From: Streptomyces antibioticus
Lineage (GTDB): Bacteria > Actinomycetota > Actinomycetes > Streptomycetales > Streptomycetaceae
Assembly (NCBI RefSeq): GCF_001514065.1
Contig: NZ_KQ948426.1
Location: 248,001 to 312,000 of the forward strand
Direction of reading: 5' to 3'
DNA: 64,000 nt
Shown: piece by piece, positions 15,983 through 23,314 of the stretch
Position numbering within the stretch: position 1 is the first letter of the stretch
Layout of the letters: each line of letters begins with the position of its first letter
Made by a program: the position numbers and the translations under genes
The notes under the pieces: generated by a model
Told to the model about the DNA's origin: nothing
The model's input: only the letters and a program-made list of their open reading frames with translations
The model's database searches: none

Positions 15983-16318
15983 TCAGGCACTGCGGGGGGT
16001 GGCTGAGATGGTCCGTGGGGTGGGGGATTCCGGTTCCACCAGCCGATGGTCTCGTTGGTCGAGGTTCACAAAGATCATTCCGTACCGAATGGCACACCGC
16101 ACAGGCTGCGGCGCCCCCCGAGGCCGCCGCAGACACCGGTACGCCCGGACGTCCTCGTCGTCGTCACGGGTGACCACGACCGGCTCTCCGAAGACCGTCA
16201 CCATCAATGAGTCACCGGAGTGAGGGATCGCGGTGACCAGATCGATGAAGTGCCAGCCGGACCGGTAGGCCGTGGCCATCTCGCGTCGGAACGAGCGGTC
16301 GTCAGGGGGAGTCGTCAC
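15983..16318 (-). CDS. Rieske-fold-like protein lacking [2Fe-2S] ligands
   Basis: A 111-residue protein. The segment around residues 20-80 (SGWHFIDL, GDSLMVTVFGEPVVVTRD, VRAYRCLRRPRGAP, RYGMIFVNLD) follows the N-terminal Rieske domain of ring-hydroxylating oxygenases. The first cluster motif would be Cys-X-His followed by RGA; here it reads CLRRPRGAP, and no second Cys-X2-His pair is present. It therefore should not bind a cluster. The C-terminal oxygenase domain is absent. The GTG start at 16318 lies one base after the stop of the upstream peptide gene, so the two are tightly coupled. Function is unknown; a binding or regulatory role is inferred from loss of the ligands. Confidence 0.6.
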   Translation of the reverse strand: MTTPPDDRSFRREMATAYRSGWHFIDLVTAIPHSGDSLMVTVFGEPVVVTRDDDEDVRAYRCLRRPRGAPQPVRCAIRYGMIFVNLDQRDHRLVEPESPTPRTISATPRSA

Positions 16319-16319
16319 G

Positions 16320-16505
16320 TCAGCTCCCGACAGCCCAAGCGCTGTCCTGGGCCTTCCACGCACTGTCGCCAGGCGCGGCCTGCACCAGCCAGGCACTGTC
16401 CGCCCGAACGTCGCCCTTCGTGTCGGAGAAGGCACCCAGTGCCCCGAAAGCCACAACGGCGGAAAAAGCGGCGGCAAGCACCGAGCGAAGCAATTTCTTC
16501 TGCAT
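16320..16505 (-). CDS. small secreted peptide with three DSAW motifs
   Basis: A 61-residue precursor. The N-terminus has a classical signal peptide (MQKKLLRSVLAAAFSAVVAFGALGA), with cleavage likely near residues 27-32. The rest, about 30 residues, contains DSAW three times (ADSAWLV, GDSAWKA, QDSAWAV) and ends in AVGS. No cysteine or catalytic residue is present. It starts at the ATG 16505, 132 bp from the divergent LuxR-type gene, and is coupled to the Rieske-like gene. A signal, wall-bound or host-interaction peptide is plausible; I recognise no characterised family. The tryptophan repeat may mark processing or binding units. Confidence 0.7.
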   Translation of the reverse strand: MQKKLLRSVLAAAFSAVVAFGALGAFSDTKGDVRADSAWLVQAAPGDSAWKAQDSAWAVGS

Positions 16506-16637
16506 AGTCGGCTTCGTCCTCACTTGAAGGTCCCCTCTTCACCCCGTTAACCAAGACGATGGCTCATTCGGGCACGTCATGGCCACACAATCGATGCATC
16601 ATGTTCCTGCACGTTCATAACCCTGGGGGGTGGAGGT

Positions 16638-17630
16638 TTGACAACAAAGAGGGCCAAAGGGACACATCCGCACGCGATGACCATGTTGTGCGAGGAGGGC
16701 GGCCTGCTTTACGCGAACGCGCTGCGCACCGGACGCATACCCCGCTCGGATGTGGAGGTCGCTCCCTGCCTGATGGAGTTCGACCTGCTCCATCCCGACC
16801 CGGACGATCCGAGCTGGCTGCGCCCCGTGCCCCCGGCGATCGCCCTGGCGCAACGGCTCAACCCCATAGAGCACGAGATCAGCGAACGCAGACAGCTGTC
16901 GATCGAACTCGCCGACGCTTTCAAGCCGTTCATGGCCCTCAGTGCCCAGGCGACGACGGCGACCCACTCCATCACGGTGCTGGAGGGGCGTGACCGGATC
17001 AACGCCGCGCTCAACCTGGCCGCGGACCAGTGCCACACCGAGATGCTCACGGTCCAGCCCAGCACCCGCCGGACCGAGCGCAGTCTCCTTCAGGGGCTGG
17101 AGCGGGACAAGACGCTGATCGAGCGGGGAGTGCGCATCCGGACCCTCTACCAGCACACCGCCAGGTACAGCCCGGAAAAGCTGGCCTACGTGGACCAGCT
17201 CTCCAAGGGCAAGGTGGAGTACCGCACCATCGACGAGCTGGTCGAGCGTCTCATCATCTGCGACGAGACCGTCGCCTTCATCCCCACCCGGGACGACCTC
17301 GAGGTCGCCCTGGAGCTGCGGCACCCCGGGCTCGTCCGCTACCTGATCAAGGTCTTCGAGTTCATGTGGGGCCGCTCAGTCCCGCTGAGCGCCGGCGCCC
17401 CGTACGAGACCGCCGCCGACGGCATCACCGACATCCAGCACTCCATCGCCAAGCTCCTGGTGGAGGGCCACGTCGACGAGGCCATCGCGCGCAGGCTGGG
17501 CATGAACGTCCGCACCTGCCGGGCCCACATCGCCAAGCTGGCCGCGGCGCTGGGCAGCGGCAGCCGGGCCCAGCTCGGCTTCCTCATCGCCGAGTCCGGC
17601 ATCCTCAAGCACGACGGCACCGAGCCGTGA
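16638..17630 (+). CDS. LuxR-type regulator with TrmB-like sensor region (paralog A)
   Basis: A protein of about 330 residues. Residues 1-70 hold a degenerate winged-helix-like segment (ANALRTGRIPRSDVE). Residues 120-245 match the TrmB/PLD-like module seen in Streptomyces regulators (MLTVQPSTRR, RIRTLYQHTARYS, VEYRTIDELVERLIICD, VAFIPTRDD, LRHPGLVRYL). A LuxR helix-turn-helix follows at about 267-320 with VDEAIARRLGMNVRTCRAH. There is no receiver domain, so activation must be by ligand or protein contact. The start is uncertain: TTG 16638 has GGAGG only one base away, and ATG 16677 is an alternative. The stop overlaps the next gene's GTG. It is divergent from the DSAW peptide operon. Confidence 0.8.
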   Translation: MTTKRAKGTHPHAMTMLCEEGGLLYANALRTGRIPRSDVEVAPCLMEFDLLHPDPDDPSWLRPVPPAIALAQRLNPIEHEISERRQLSIELADAFKPFMALSAQATTATHSITVLEGRDRINAALNLAADQCHTEMLTVQPSTRRTERSLLQGLERDKTLIERGVRIRTLYQHTARYSPEKLAYVDQLSKGKVEYRTIDELVERLIICDETVAFIPTRDDLEVALELRHPGLVRYLIKVFEFMWGRSVPLSAGAPYETAADGITDIQHSIAKLLVEGHVDEAIARRLGMNVRTCRAHIAKLAAALGSGSRAQLGFLIAESGILKHDGTEP

Positions 17631-18601
17631 CCTTGCCGCACCCCGAGCACGGCCCGGAGGAGCTGTGCGCGGAAGGTCTGGAACTGTACGGACGCGCCCT
17701 GCGGGACGAAGGCGTCCCGGAGCAGCAAGCGGACGCCGTGCCCTGTGTGCTGCGCGCCGGCCTGCTCCGACCCGACCTCGACACCCCACGGTGGCTGCGG
17801 CCCGTCCCTCCGGGAGTGGCCCTGTCGCGGCTGCTGCGGGGCATCGCCGAGGACATCGCCCGACGCCGGCAGGCCGAGACACAGCTGGCCGAGGCCTTCG
17901 AGCCGCTGCTGGGCCTCGCCGACCGGCAGACCGGCGCCGTGGACTCCGGCGGTTTCACCCTGGTGAGCGGTCGCGTCCAGATCAACGACGCCATCAAGCA
18001 CGCGCTGCTGCGTTCCACCGACGAGGCGCTGACCATCCAGCCGGGCGGCAAGCGCCCGCTGACCTCACTGGCCACCGCCCTGGTCAACGAGCGGCCGCTG
18101 CTCGCGCGGGGCGGCCGGATGAGAACCCTCTACCAGCACACCTCTCGTCACGATCCCGCCGTCCTCGCCCACTACGAGCTCCTCGACGGCGATGTGGAGG
18201 TCCGCACCCTCGACGAGGTCCCCGAACGGCTCATCGTCCTCGACCGCAAGGTCGCCTTCCTCCCCGCCAACGCCGACCGGACCGTGGCCGTCGAGATCCG
18301 CCACCCTCCCCTGGTCACCTACCTCGCCACCACGTTCGACCGCCTCTGGCGCCTCGCCACCCCCATGTACCCCGAGGCGGTCCAACCCCCCACGCTCAAC
18401 GGCGTCACCCCGCGCCAACGCGCCATAGCCGCCCTGCTCATCGAGGGCCACACCGACGCCGTCATAGCCGACCGCCTCGGCCTCAACGTGCGCACCGCCC
18501 GCGAGCACATCGCCAAGCTCGCCGCGACGCTGGGCAGCGAGAGCCGCGCCCAACTCGGCTACCTCATCGGACGCTCCGGGATTCTTGACCAGGAATCGTG
18601 A
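17627..18601 (+). CDS. LuxR-type regulator with TrmB-like sensor region (paralog B)
   Basis: A 324-residue paralog of the preceding gene with the same order: an N-terminal segment (ALRDEGVPEQQ), central module (LTIQPGGKRP, RMRTLYQHTSRHD, VEVRTLDEVPERLIVLD, VAFLPANADRT, EIRHPPLVTYL) and C-terminal LuxR helix-turn-helix (TDAVIADRLGLNVRTAREH). The GTG at 17627 overlaps the TGA of paralog A (GTGA), so the two are translated together and may form a heteromer. Its 3' end overlaps the 3' end of paralog C on the opposite strand by 38 bp. The ligand and targets are unknown; the linked peptide gene is a candidate target or input. Confidence 0.82.
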   Translation: MTLPHPEHGPEELCAEGLELYGRALRDEGVPEQQADAVPCVLRAGLLRPDLDTPRWLRPVPPGVALSRLLRGIAEDIARRRQAETQLAEAFEPLLGLADRQTGAVDSGGFTLVSGRVQINDAIKHALLRSTDEALTIQPGGKRPLTSLATALVNERPLLARGGRMRTLYQHTSRHDPAVLAHYELLDGDVEVRTLDEVPERLIVLDRKVAFLPANADRTVAVEIRHPPLVTYLATTFDRLWRLATPMYPEAVQPPTLNGVTPRQRAIAALLIEGHTDAVIADRLGLNVRTAREHIAKLAATLGSESRAQLGYLIGRSGILDQES

Positions 18602-19718
18602 GCGCGCCCCCGGCGCTCCCGGCGGCTCCGACGTCCCCGACGCCACCCGCGCCCCCGGCACTCCCGACCCCGCCCACGCCCCCGGCACCCCCGCCCTCCA
18701 TCGGCCGCGGCGGCCCGTCCAGCCCCACCTGGGCGATGCGCACCCCCAGTTGCGTGCGGCTCGCCGCGCCCAGCGTCTCCGAGAGGCGGGCGATGTGGGC
18801 CCGGCAGGTGCGCACGCTTATGCCGAGCCGTTCCGCGATCACCGCGTCCTGGTGGCCCTCCGCGAGCAGCGCCGCGATGGACTGCTCCCGGTTGGAGATG
18901 CCCTCGATGCCGGTGTCGGGCAGCGGGGCGGTCAGCGGGATCGCCAGCCGCCACAGGCGTTCGAAGACCGTCGCCAGGAAGCCCACCAGCGCCGGGTGCC
19001 GCAGCTCCAGCGCGAGCGTGCGGTCCGCGTTCGCCGGGATGAACGCCACCGTGCGGTCGAAGAGGATCAGCCGGTCGATGACCTCGTCGAGGGTGCGGGC
19101 CTGGACCGTGTCGCCCATCAGCTCCAGGTAGTTGAGCAGGCCCTGGCCGTGCCGGGCCACGTGTGTGTACAGGTCGCGCATGCGCACGCCCCGGGCGCGC
19201 AGCGCCAGCGCCCGGTGCAGGCCCTCGGTCAGCTCGTGCTCGGGACGGATGCCGCCGGGCTGGACCGTCAGCACCTCCGTCGTGCACGCCTGCGTCGCCT
19301 CGTCCATCGCCGCCTGGATACGGGAGAGCCCGTCGAGGACCCGGATCGCGGAGCGGTCCGCCATCGCCGACGACGCCACCTGCGAGTCAAGGCCCGCGTA
19401 CCACTCGAACGCGGCCACCGCCGAGCCCATCCGGCGCTGACTCGCGCTGACCTCGTCGTAGACACCGCGCAGCAGCCGGGTCATGACCTCCTGTGGGGAG
19501 GTGGGGACCAGCCAGTCCATGTCGTCGGGGTCGGGGTGCAGCAGGGCCAGCTCCAGCAGGCACGGCACCGGCTCCGCGTCCTCGCGCGGCACCCGGCCCC
19601 GCCGTACGGCCCGGGAATACACGCGATCCCCGGCCTCGCACAGTCGGTCAGCACCGTGTGGATGCTCGTCCGCCGCGTGCCCGGCCATCGCCCAGCCCAC
19701 CCCCGGTTCCCGCTTCAT
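18564..19718 (-). CDS. LuxR-type regulator with TrmB-like sensor region (paralog C)
   Basis: A third paralog, convergent with B. From the ATG at 19718 it is about 384 residues. The order is N-terminal helical segment (AVRRGRVPRED), sensor module (LTVQPGGIRPEHE, RMRDLYTHVARHG, VQARTLDEVIDRLILFD, VAFIPANADRT, ELRHPALVGFL) and LuxR helix-turn-helix (QDAVIAERLGISVRTCRAH). It differs from A and B in its C-terminal extension of about 45 residues, low-complexity Gly/Ala/Val (DNA 18600-18710). The frame is open further upstream to 19832. It is divergent from the ATP-grasp operon, with 275 bp between, and might regulate that operon as well. Confidence 0.82.
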   Translation of the reverse strand: MKREPGVGWAMAGHAADEHPHGADRLCEAGDRVYSRAVRRGRVPREDAEPVPCLLELALLHPDPDDMDWLVPTSPQEVMTRLLRGVYDEVSASQRRMGSAVAAFEWYAGLDSQVASSAMADRSAIRVLDGLSRIQAAMDEATQACTTEVLTVQPGGIRPEHELTEGLHRALALRARGVRMRDLYTHVARHGQGLLNYLELMGDTVQARTLDEVIDRLILFDRTVAFIPANADRTLALELRHPALVGFLATVFERLWRLAIPLTAPLPDTGIEGISNREQSIAALLAEGHQDAVIAERLGISVRTCRAHIARLSETLGAASRTQLGVRIAQVGLDGPPRPMEGGGAGGVGGVGSAGGAGGVGDVGAAGSAGGALTIPGQESRSVR

Positions 19719-19993: not shown

Positions 19994-21538
19994 ATGGCGG
20001 ACATATTTGACGCGTACGCGTTGGCCGACGCGTGGGACGAGATGTTTGTGCGGCCGGGTGAGGTCAGGACCGCCTATGAGCCGGTGCTGGCGGCACTTCA
20101 GCCGATCGAGCCGAGTGAACTGCGCTTCCGGGCCGACCAGATGGCCCGGGCGTTCACCGACCGGGGCGTGACCTACGCCTTCGCGGGCGAGGAACGGCCC
20201 TGGCCGCTGGACCTCGTGCCGAGGATCCTCGACGCCCTGGAGTGGGATCTCATACAACGGGGGGTCGCCCAGCGGGTGCGGGCCCTGGAGGCCTATCTCG
20301 GCGACGCCTACGGGCACTGCCGGGCCTTCGAGGACGGGGTCGTGCCCTGGCGGCTGCTCCTCAACTCCCCCCACTTCCACCGGGTGGCGCACGGGGTCGA
20401 ACCACCGGGCGGGGTGCGCATCCACGTCGCCGGCATCGACCTCGTACGCGACGAGGCCGGTGACTTCCGGGTCCTGGAGGACAACGTCCGGGTGCCCAGC
20501 GGGGTCTCGTACGTCATCGAGAACCGGCGGGCCATGACCCGGATCTTCCCCTCCCTCTTTGCCGAGCAGCACGTCGTGCCGGTGGACGGGTACGCGCAGA
20601 AGCTGCTCGCCGCCCTGCGCAAAGCCGCCCCGGACGGGGCCGACGACCCCCGTGTCGTCGTCCTCACCCCCGGCCCCAGCAACGCGGCCTACTTCGAACA
20701 CGCCCTGCTGGCACGGCTGATGGGCGTGCAGCTGGTCGAGGGACACGACCTGGTGTGCCGGGGCAACCGGGTGTGGATGCGGACCACGCGCGGCGAGGTG
20801 CCGGTGCATGTCGTATACCGGCGCCTCGACGACGACTTCCTCGACCCGCTGCACTTCCGGCCCGACTCTGTCATCGGCTGCCCCGGCATCATGAGTGCCG
20901 CGATGGCCGGGAACGTCACCCTCGCCAACGCCGTCGGCAACGGCATCGCCGACGACAAGCTGCTCTACACCTACGTCCCCGACCTCATCCGGTACTACCT
21001 CGGCGAAGAACCGATTCTCCCCAACGTCGAGTCCTTCCGCCCCGACGAACCCGGGCAACTGGACGCCGTCCTCGACCAGATCGACCAGCTCGTCATCAAG
21101 CCGGTGGACGGAGCCGGCGGCCAGGGCATCGTCATCGGTCCCAAGGCCGACGCCGAGACCCTGCGCAAGACCCGGGAGGCCGTCATGGCCGACCCGCGCG
21201 GCTTCATCGCCCAGCGGCCCGTCGCCCTGTCCACCTCCCCCACCCTCGCCGGAGAACGGATGGCACCGCGCCACATCGACCTCAGGCCGTTCGCCGTCAA
21301 CGACGGCAACGATGTCTGGGTGCTGCCCGGCGGCCTCACCCGCGTCGCCCTCCAGGAGGGCAACCTGATCGTCAACTCCAGCCAGGGCGGCGGCTCCAAG
21401 GACACCTGGGTACTCGCCGAAGGCCCCGCCGAGCCCCTCGAGACGCCGCACACCGAGGGACTCCCCGAGGTCGCACCCCGCCAGCTCGGTCCCGACGGCA
21501 ACCCCACCTTCGTGGAGGAAGGGGCGCAGCAGCAGTGA
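19994..21538 (+). CDS. circularly permuted ATP-grasp type 2 protein
   Basis: A 514-residue cytoplasmic protein of the DUF404/DUF407 (CP_ATPgrasp_2) family. Recognisable blocks are VLEDNVRVPSGVSYV (about residues 157-171), VVVLTPGPSNAAYFEH, LVEGHDLVCRGNRVW, NAVGNGIADDKLLYTYVPD, the nucleotide-binding VIKPVDGAGGQGIVIGP (about 371-387) and RHIDLRPFAV. The fold predicts ATP-dependent ligation of a carboxylate to an amine, but no substrate is proven for the family to my knowledge. The stop overlaps the start of the alpha-E gene and the third gene follows 4 bp later, so the three act together. No strong ribosome-binding site precedes the ATG. Confidence 0.9.
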   Translation: MADIFDAYALADAWDEMFVRPGEVRTAYEPVLAALQPIEPSELRFRADQMARAFTDRGVTYAFAGEERPWPLDLVPRILDALEWDLIQRGVAQRVRALEAYLGDAYGHCRAFEDGVVPWRLLLNSPHFHRVAHGVEPPGGVRIHVAGIDLVRDEAGDFRVLEDNVRVPSGVSYVIENRRAMTRIFPSLFAEQHVVPVDGYAQKLLAALRKAAPDGADDPRVVVLTPGPSNAAYFEHALLARLMGVQLVEGHDLVCRGNRVWMRTTRGEVPVHVVYRRLDDDFLDPLHFRPDSVIGCPGIMSAAMAGNVTLANAVGNGIADDKLLYTYVPDLIRYYLGEEPILPNVESFRPDEPGQLDAVLDQIDQLVIKPVDGAGGQGIVIGPKADAETLRKTREAVMADPRGFIAQRPVALSTSPTLAGERMAPRHIDLRPFAVNDGNDVWVLPGGLTRVALQEGNLIVNSSQGGGSKDTWVLAEGPAEPLETPHTEGLPEVAPRQLGPDGNPTFVEEGAQQQ

Positions 21539-22467
21539 GCGACGTGATCCTCTCCCGGATAGCCGAGGCACTGACCTGGACCGGGCGCTACGTCGAACGG
21601 GCGGACGCCACCGGCCGCATCCTCGACGCCTACCTCCACCGCATGCTGGAGGACCCCTGGCGCGACGAGGACGTGGCCTGCCGGTCGCTGTACGCGATCC
21701 TCGGCGTCGACGCGGGCCCCGAGCGCGTCGACATGCAGCAGGTCCTCGACCAGCTGGCCTTCGACTCCCGCTCCACCTGCTCCATCGAGGGCGCGCTCGG
21801 CGCCGCCCGGCTCAACGCCCGCAGCGCCCGGGAGGCCGTCTCCTCGGAGATGTGGGAGTGCCTCAACTCCACCTGGCACGCCCTCGCCGACCAGCGCCGC
21901 GCGGCCCGCCGTACCGGCCCCTACGCCTATCTGGAACTCGTACGGGCCCGTGCCGCGCTGTTCTTCGGGCTCGCCGACTCCACCATGAGCCGGGACGACA
22001 GTTGGCGTTTCGTCGTCCTCGGGCGCAGCCTGGAGCGGGTGGACATGACCGTACGACTGCTGTCGGTACGCGTGCTGGACGCCGCGCACGCGCCCGACTG
22101 GACCACCCTGCTGAGCGCGTCCGGCGCCGACGAGGCGTACGCGCGCATCCACAGCGGCTTCGGCGACAGCGCGCGGGTGGCCGAATTCCTGCTCCTGGAC
22201 CGGGACTTCCCGCGCTCCGCGCTGCACGCCCTGACCACCGCCGAGGAGTGCCTCAGCGCCCTCGGCCGCCCCCGCCAGGACCCGGCCCGCCGCCCGATCG
22301 GACGCCTGCGCACCCGCCTGGAATACCTCGACCTGACCGCCCTCCAGGACCAGCTCCCCGCCCTCCTCGGCGACCTGCAACAGGCCTGCATGGCCTCGGC
22401 GGAGGCGGTCGCGGAGCGGTTCTTCCCGTACCAGGGGCCCGTGATCTGGGCCCAGGAAGGGGCGTGA
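21535..22467 (+). CDS. alpha-E domain protein
   Basis: A 310-residue, almost entirely helical protein of the alpha-E (DUF403) family. It begins LSRIAEALTWTGRYVERAD, the standard N-terminal signature, and has CSIEGALGAARLNARSAREA and SWRFVVLGRSLERVDMT in the middle. The function of the family is not established, and it always travels with the permuted ATP-grasp protein and often a transglutaminase. The GTG at 21535 overlaps the ATP-grasp stop (GTGA). It may present the peptide or amine substrate, but this is inferred from linkage. Confidence 0.9.
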   Translation: MSDVILSRIAEALTWTGRYVERADATGRILDAYLHRMLEDPWRDEDVACRSLYAILGVDAGPERVDMQQVLDQLAFDSRSTCSIEGALGAARLNARSAREAVSSEMWECLNSTWHALADQRRAARRTGPYAYLELVRARAALFFGLADSTMSRDDSWRFVVLGRSLERVDMTVRLLSVRVLDAAHAPDWTTLLSASGADEAYARIHSGFGDSARVAEFLLLDRDFPRSALHALTTAEECLSALGRPRQDPARRPIGRLRTRLEYLDLTALQDQLPALLGDLQQACMASAEAVAERFFPYQGPVIWAQEGA

Positions 22468-22471
22468 GCAG

Positions 22472-23314
22472 ATGGCGCGCCGCCTGAGGATCAAGCACGT
22501 CACACGGGTGTCGTACGCCCAGCCCGCGGCCTCCTCCCACAACGAGGTCCGCATGACCCCGCTCACCCTGCCGGGCCAGACCACCCTGGACTCCCGGGTC
22601 ACCGTCAGCCCGGCCACCTCGACCTGGTCGTACTGGGACTACTGGGGCACCCAGGTCACCGGCTTCGACCTCCTCGACCCGCACGCCGACCTCGTCATCA
22701 CGGCCTCCAGCCTGGTGGAGACGGCCCCGCCGGACACCCTGCCCGTGGCGCCGAGCTGGGCAGAACTGTCGGAAAGTACGGCGACTTCCCGCCTGTTGGA
22801 GTTCACGGGCTCCACCGCCCGTACGACCGTCTCCGCGAAGCTCCTCAAGAAGGCCCGGAAGGCCGCCGCAGGGCTCGACCCGCACGAGACGGCCGTCGCG
22901 GTCTCCGCCCTGGTCGCCGACCGTGTCACCTACCTCCCCGGCGCCACGGGCGTGACCACCTCCGCGGCCGAGGCCTGGGAACAGGGCGCCGGCGTCTGCC
23001 AGGACATCGCCCACGTCACCATCGCCCTGCTGCGCGGCCTCGGCCTGCCGACCCGGTACGTCTCCGGCTACCTCCACCCCGAGCGGGAGGCGGAACTGCA
23101 CCGGCCGGTCGCGGGGCAGAGCCACGCCTGGATCGAGTACTGGGCCGGCGACTGGTGCGGCTACGACCCGACGAACCGGACCCGCGCCGACGAGTCGCAC
23201 GTCGTGGTCGGCCGCGGCCGGGACTACGACGACGTGACCCCGCACAAGGGCATCTACCGGGGCGTGCCCGGCGGGCCGCCGGAGGTGACGGTGGAGTTCA
23301 CGCGGGTGGCGTGA
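22472..23314 (+). CDS. transglutaminase-like protein (alpha-E operon)
   Basis: A 280-residue protein with a bacterial transglutaminase-like N-terminal domain (residues 1-100) and a catalytic core. The Cys-His-Asp triad is visible: Cys in GAGVCQDIAH (about 173), His in QSHAWIEYW (about 213) and Asp in GYDPTN (about 228). Enzymes of this fold cleave or form amide bonds. There is no signal peptide, so it acts in the cytoplasm. It starts 4 bp after the alpha-E stop. With ATP-grasp and alpha-E it forms a conserved three-gene set, predicted but not shown to make and process an amide-linked product. Confidence 0.92.
   Translation: MARRLRIKHVTRVSYAQPAASSHNEVRMTPLTLPGQTTLDSRVTVSPATSTWSYWDYWGTQVTGFDLLDPHADLVITASSLVETAPPDTLPVAPSWAELSESTATSRLLEFTGSTARTTVSAKLLKKARKAAAGLDPHETAVAVSALVADRVTYLPGATGVTTSAAEAWEQGAGVCQDIAHVTIALLRGLGLPTRYVSGYLHPEREAELHRPVAGQSHAWIEYWAGDWCGYDPTNRTRADESHVVVGRGRDYDDVTPHKGIYRGVPGGPPEVTVEFTRVA

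Follow-up and report, generated by a model that had tools for sequence, protein, structure and literature searches.

Peptide signalling of the RRNPP kind in Firmicutes (Rap–Phr, PlcR–PapR, NprR–NprX) joins a signal-peptide precursor to a cytosolic regulator with a tetratricopeptide repeat (TPR) peptide-binding domain, and the yeast alpha-factor precursor carries several identical pheromone copies within one secreted protein. What is known of signalling in Streptomyces concerns mostly small-molecule hormones; a developmental peptide signal in Streptomyces is said to have been proposed in the 1990s, and we know of no gene that has been assigned to it. Here we describe a cassette in Streptomyces antibioticus (a stretch of 64,000 nucleotides of contig NZ_KQ948426.1, called the window throughout) in which the peptide gene PEP, the Rieske-like gene RSK and the regulator genes R1, R2 and R3 lie beside clpB. 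From the comparison of sequences we consider it very likely that PEP is a multi-copy pheromone precursor and that R1 is the cytosolic receptor of its tetra- or pentapeptide. No report of this peptide–receptor pair was found among the matches listed for the open PubMed Central literature (preprints were outside the search).

Repeated motif of PEP and the sensor of R1

The cassette was read in 238 loci, each chosen through PEP, RSK or R1: a first set of 161 (the window, 80 loci found by the peptide and 80 loci of named species found by R1 alone) and a later set of 77 chosen by R1 or RSK matches; some may come from one and the same strain. PEP, RSK and R1 stood together in all 161 and in all 77 (238/238), PEP being recognised by its repeats alone in nine of the later loci. 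The precursor begins with a short basic start and a hydrophobic stretch, followed by 1–18 copies of the motif [D/N/E]-[S/T/I/L/V/P]-x-W. The first set comprises 149 distinct peptides, with 26 major tetrapeptides among them, and the motif differs between species while the copies in one precursor mostly match: all copies are identical in 105 of the 111 distinct multi-copy peptides (shuffling among peptides gave a mean of 10.5 and a maximum of 22 in 2000 trials), and in 69 of 72 among the later loci. Considering 633 same-residue copy pairs (not deduplicated, with long precursors weighing most), 217 use the same three codons, synonymous differences affect 519 of the 1899 codons, and serine codons mix AGY and TCN. 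Since the residues match while the codons differ, it is selection, and not recent duplication alone, that maintains the likeness of the copies. Agreement between copies is 1.00 at positions 1–4 by construction and 0.80 at position 5 (expected 0.14), and drops to background at −1 (0.22; expected 0.18) and at +6 (0.22; expected 0.15), so the repeat unit comprises four to five residues; the precursor C-terminus falls exactly at position 5 in 66 of 223 distinct precursors. Where position 5 varies, as in this window, the ligand may be the tetrapeptide. The mixed precursors of L130, L114, L136, L139, L147 and L154 (e.g. DSYW, DSFW and DSVW in one precursor) may represent pherotypes caught while changing.

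In particular, motif position 2 goes with residue 136 of R1. Among the 153 non-redundant loci of the first set used for column correlations and residue counts (L078 and rows with identical R1 were left out), Ser at position 2 accompanies Met136 in 110/110, Thr accompanies Val136 in 39/39, and Ile or Leu stands with Val or Ala in 4/4. This rule was fixed in writing before the 77 later loci were obtained, and there it gave Ser–Met in 11/11 and Thr–Val in 8/8, bringing the totals to 121/121 and 47/47, 19 of these from loci obtained after the rule. The later loci also brought new classes, Pro–Leu (18/18) and Val–Val (4/4), together with Ile accompanied by Val (22) or Ile (2) and Leu accompanied by Val (8), Ile (3) or Ala (1); six further loci fit the rule as well (Ser–Met three, Thr–Val two, Leu–Ile one). 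On a clpB tree of 149 of the 153 loci (those with clpB matches of at least 600 residues), position 2 switched between Ser and Thr no fewer than 31 times, and in 26/26 supported independent pairs residue 136 moved with it. On R1's own tree, built without column 136, the figure is 9/9 pairs, the best of 166 control columns scoring 4.2 in the same direction and 1.0 in the opposite one. Pro at position 5 is found with Gln221 in 54/54 loci and then in 2/2 (56/56 in total), with 18/18 independent pairs agreeing, and Arg221 goes with precursors ending at position 5 in 70/74 loci, where it may hold the free carboxylate.

The best column against position 2 reaches 0.96 in R1 (residue 136), 0.57 in R2, 0.46 in ClpB, 0.30 in RSK and 0.21 in R3; against position 3 the values are 0.60 in R1, 0.22 in R2, 0.44 in ClpB, 0.49 in RSK and 0.23 in R3, and the means over columns are 0.141, 0.010, 0.044, 0.108 and 0.045, respectively. 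The 12 top R1 columns lie within the sensor (residues 108–225) in 7, 9, 11 and 12 cases for positions 1, 2, 3 and 5, where 85 of the 202 variable R1 columns are located. Alignment A1 comprised 79 of the 80 picked (L260, with a truncated R1, was out) and alignment A2 24 of 26 (L128 and L207 were out).

The other two regulators behave differently. At the position of residue 136, R3 has Val in 137 of 149 loci, whatever the peptide class (12 were not readable), and the best of 159 control columns in R3 scored 4.9 in the same direction, 0.5 in the opposite one and 19.6 without a difference; with this constant Val and a best correlation of 0.21, R3 is rejected as a receptor for position 2. R2 could be a second peptide reader on its weak correlation only, for which the first copy alone was used, residue 136 being unreadable in 131 of 147 copies. 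The original prediction, in which a secreted peptide is sensed by its neighbours, is thus strongly supported for R1 by co-occurrence, identical repeats and a covariation that held on later loci; it is not supported for R3, and for R2 it comes down to that weak correlation.

The R1 sensor has a TrmB/phospholipase D (PLD)-like fold according to its structure model (predicted local distance difference test, pLDDT, 79.9; predicted template-modelling score, pTM, 0.49), which places such a domain at about residues 112–250 and is followed by C-terminal helices. Foldseek matched this model to TrmBL2 (5bpi, E 2.4e-13), TrmB (3qph, 2.9e-8; 2f5t, 3.6e-6) and PLD-family nucleases, and an R1 profile matched TrmBL2 (E 4.4e-5) and, weakly, LuxR-type helix-turn-helix (HTH) domains. 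For the GerE HTH, Pfam gave 16.6 bits for R1, 23.2 for R2 and 39.5 for R3 at a cut-off of 23.5, so that only R3 lies above it. No TPR family was among the Pfam matches of R1, the model pointing to TrmB and PLD folds instead, and no autoinducer-binding (acyl-homoserine lactone) domain was among those of R1–R3. As to what the R1 sensor binds, the covariation points to a peptide rather than a sugar.

Proposed signalling route and competing explanations

Linkage, motif repetition, covariation and fold support the pairing of PEP with R1, and from these we infer a route for the signal. By eye, R1 lacks a membrane segment, and it would therefore meet the peptide inside the cell; given a secretion-like leader and an intracellular R1, export, cleavage and re-import make the simplest path. 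PEP would leave the cell by way of its Sec-like leader and be cleaved there into [D/N/E]-[S/T/I/L/V/P]-x-W-(z), here DSAW alone or extended by the following residue, and the short peptide would be re-imported, most likely through an oligopeptide permease. Binding to the TrmB/PLD-like domain of cytosolic R1 may then alter how its LuxR-like HTH binds DNA at the shared PEP/R1 promoter (which would amount to autoregulation) and elsewhere. Residue 136 would read position 2 and residue 221 position 5, and each lineage would respond mainly to its own pherotype. The output would probably be control over antibiotic production, given that SCO3664, the likely R1 of Streptomyces coelicolor (see below), is a down-modulator of actinorhodin.

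Were R1 to bind the PEP precursor or its repeats within the cell before export, the cassette would be a cell-autonomous switch or an export checkpoint, and not a means of communication. Any direct contact would give covariation, R1 has no visible membrane segment, and repeats sit in linkers as well as at C-termini, all of which suits such binding; we nevertheless think it unlikely, given that the leader resembles a Sec signal, that many copies and lineage-specific types are typical of secreted pheromones, and that the 66 precursors ending exactly at position 5 look as if a free C-terminus mattered, with Arg221 accompanying precursors of this kind. Still less probable, as judged from RSK rather than from a systematic search for other neighbouring enzymes, is that the repeats serve as core sequences for a secreted antibiotic or for a ribosomally synthesized and post-translationally modified peptide (RiPP), with RSK as modifying or immunity protein and R1 as a self-sensing regulator. 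The leader-plus-core layout and the tightly linked Rieske-derived neighbour would fit, but RSK is without both His ligands and seemingly without the second ligand loop, so that Rieske chemistry is unlikely, and RSK was not seen at paralogous cassettes (one match at E 0.62 in 23 loci).

The match between R1 and the peptide could also mean no more than that linked alleles are inherited together and recombine between species. The genes do adjoin, and the clpB tree shows at least 97 changes of the tetrapeptide, a number that may include exchange of the cassette. This reading has very little to commend it, however, considering that the R1 tree lacking column 136 also gave 9/9 pairs, that nearby R3 does not follow the peptide, and that the residue sizes complement each other (Ser–Met, Thr–Val); simple co-transfer of alleles is disfavoured by the R1-tree result in particular.

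Several observations weigh against PEP and R1 being a pheromone–receptor pair. The PEP of L078 lacks an exact motif, motifs are mixed in six peptides of the first set and in three later ones (L212, L220 and L259), and position 5 differs between copies in some precursors, including that of the window (L, K and A). Gln221 occurs without Pro in 1 of the 153 and 4 of the 77 loci, and for positions 1 and 3 there are statistical correlates only, partly clade-linked. Single columns of RSK (0.49) and ClpB (0.44) correlate with position 3, as do columns of R2 (0.57) and ClpB (0.46) with position 2, to be set against 0.96 for residue 136 of R1. In far paralogs the residue-136 rule mostly fails for Ser. 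We also count against the proposal that its support is drawn from sequences.

Gene layout, domains and spread of the cassette

The layout originally proposed, a PEP–RSK pair facing a coupled R1–R2 pair on which R3 converges, is borne out by the coordinates (Table 1). The GTG start of RSK lies 1 base past the PEP stop codon, R1 and R2 overlap by 4 bases, and R3 overlaps R2 by 38 bases. R2 and R3 are each 47% identical to R1, and the nearest R1 from a named species among the matches is that of Streptomyces canus (93% identity; closer records may be missing). Blocks of the PEP/R1 intergenic region are more than 97% conserved over the 161 loci, which is consistent with a shared operator. The prediction had further given the three regulators a common TrmB-like sensor and no receiver domain; the profile and model matches of R1, together with the identity of R2 and R3 to it, agree with the former, and no receiver domain was among the Pfam matches of R1, R2 and R3. 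Past R3, a run of open reading frames occupies window positions 19994–23314 (+), which we take to be an ATP-grasp-like gene, a second open reading frame and a transglutaminase-like gene; of the 81 loci whose gene order was compared, about 23 have an ATP-grasp match on the far side of R3, many of the 81 ending early there.

Table 1. Features of the cassette in the Streptomyces antibioticus window
Feature	Position	Strand	Description
PEP	16320–16505	−	61 aa; signal-peptide-like leader, then three DSAW copies (DSAWL, DSAWK, DSAWA); putative pheromone precursor
RSK	15983–16318	−	Small Rieske-derived protein lacking His ligands; starts with GTG; nearly invariant ATPRSA tail
R1	16638–17630	+	TTG start; TrmB/PLD-like sensor and C-terminal LuxR-like HTH; putative peptide receptor, key residues 136 and 221
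R2	17627–18601	+	R1 paralog; weak correlation with peptide
R3	18564–19718	−	Conserved convergent paralog, not tuned to peptide class
PEP/R1 divergent intergenic region	16506–16637	.	Conserved blocks; presumed shared promoter/operator

RSK had been read as a Rieske-like protein without ligands, and this description stands. Pfam gives the Rieske domain 15 bits (cut-off 20.3), a profile matches Rieske oxygenases clearly (E 3.8e-5) over residues 5–69 only, that is, the first half of the domain, and no C-x-H or C-x-x-H motif was seen by eye. The first ligand pair, C-x-H, reads C-L-R: the Cys is kept, and in 99% of 238 Arg replaces the His. Past C-L-R the sequence resembles the later GxIFVNLD strand, so that the loop with the second ligand pair seems to be deleted. 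We reject RSK as a Rieske enzyme, since both His ligands are gone and the oxygenase match stops before the second ligand pair. Its structure model was poor (pLDDT 65.6) and was left unused. RSK is nearly invariant across pherotypes, which suggests that it may act on some portion of the precursor or of R1 that stays constant.

Gene order, including clpB, is identical in all 81 loci laid out, and in the remaining 157 PEP lies at most 1.2 kb upstream of RSK with R1 on the same locus; considering this order and linkage, the arrangement is not due to chance. The order anticipated for other Streptomyces was thereby recovered, with PEP, RSK and R1 in each of the 238 loci. In 199 Streptomyces genomes R1 was matched in 165 at E 1e-60, four of them with no better than 1e-61 to 1e-66; at E 1e-15 RSK was matched in 162, with no RSK match in 37. 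The contrary pattern, RSK widespread without the regulators, did not occur: all 161 genomes with full-strength R1 also hold RSK, leaving a sole RSK genome of the 162, G063, with a weak R1 match. At the corresponding locus (L260) peptide and RSK are kept and R1 appears shortened, possibly a loss of the receptor with the signal retained. R2 is more variable, with no copy in 47 of the 161 loci, one in 87, two in 23, three in 2 and four in 2. Of the same 161 loci, 149 have R3, some absences being locus ends. The four R2 copies of L037 and of L100 stand in tandem, perhaps for sensing other ligands.

Counterparts, paralogous cassettes and known systems

In S. coelicolor clpB is SCO3661 (PMC2687793), and SCO3665 and SCO3666 are given as LuxR-family genes of 327 and 394 aa in a table from which SCO3664 is absent (PMC3282765). 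R2 frames allow 327 aa in 33 of 149 loci and R3 frames 394 aa in 6 of 149. Since clpB is near and these lengths fit R2 and R3, SCO3664 is probably the R1 of S. coelicolor, as judged from gene numbering and lengths alone; its absence from the LuxR-family table, as far as that source goes, is in keeping with the sub-threshold HTH of R1. In a published screen, actinorhodin rose more than 50-fold when SCO3664 carried insertions (PMC6585502). SCO3664–SCO3665–SCO3666 is thus likely the same locus, and the portions of the literature consulted call these regulator or LuxR-family genes and name no peptide. The signal imported by BldK in S. coelicolor has a mass of 655 Da (PMC9640686). RamS is 100% identical to that of S. 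coelicolor in 5 of 392 genomes, two of which (G380 and G118) allow an R2 of 327 aa and an R3 of 394 aa; their peptides, DTIWS with Val136 in G380 and DSHWP with Met136 in G118 (locus L075), both obey the residue-136 rule, and by our own arithmetic their masses are 620.3 and 640.3 Da. Neither is 655, so that these two candidates for the S. coelicolor peptide lend no support to its being the BldK signal, which it may yet be.

The S. antibioticus genome has a second cassette about 144 kb away (L271), in which a 45-aa peptide (808–945, −) ending in DPGWS is divergent from an R1-like regulator (about 1300–2343, +; 28% identity). In a scan of two more R1-like regulators of this genome (L272 and L273) no such peptide was found, so that a motif peptide stands beside 1 of 3 further R1 paralogs; by eye, L272 and L273 adjoin subtilase-like genes. 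A divergent, small, secreted-looking motif peptide lies upstream in 12 of 20 sampled paralog loci, the matches falling in five genera of Streptomycetaceae (L304, L305, L306, L307, L310, L313, L314, L317, L319, L320, L321 and L323; the weakest are L314, with DDDW, and L310, with DMGW), and the control gave matches in 17 of 638 same-length, overlapping windows of the same 23 loci. In far paralogs (35–47% identity; L271 28%) the residue-136 rule gives Thr–Val in 3/3, Ser–Met in 1/5 (the others having Leu) and Pro–Leu in 1/2. We suggest, as a probable reading of these sequences, a class of Streptomycetaceae peptide languages in which TrmB/PLD–LuxR proteins are cytosolic receptors of very short Trp pheromones, the clpB-linked cassette being a near-core version with a two-residue code and many paralogous cassettes using other codes. 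The widespread locus offers a predicted ligand per species, a predicted receptor and the two-residue code. Should R1 prove to be SCO3664, the repressor of actinorhodin, peptides of this kind could serve as tools for switching antibiotic production on or off.

Finally, considering the known systems, archaeal TrmB and TrmBL2 share the sensor fold of R1 (Foldseek and profile). TrmB is described as having a sugar-binding domain (title of 2f5t), whereas in R1 the sensor residues track a peptide and the LuxR-like HTH is C-terminal; if the proposal is true, TrmB-type sensors gain a peptide ligand. With the yeast alpha-factor PEP has the multi-copy precursor in common, the sequence, processing and receptor being unrelated. 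PEP itself scores 13.8 bits against the Phr peptide family TIGR04429, below the cut-off of 25. The likeness to RRNPP systems lies in a small precursor with a signal-peptide-like leader encoded beside a predicted cytosolic regulator (next door in all 238 loci), a putative short linear peptide and lineage-specific specificity; the differences are the TrmB/PLD-like receptor with a LuxR-like HTH, the many identical copies and the Rieske-derived partner. Judging from the modelled fold, the cassette would work like RRNPP signalling and yet is no member of that group, its predicted receptor fold being different.

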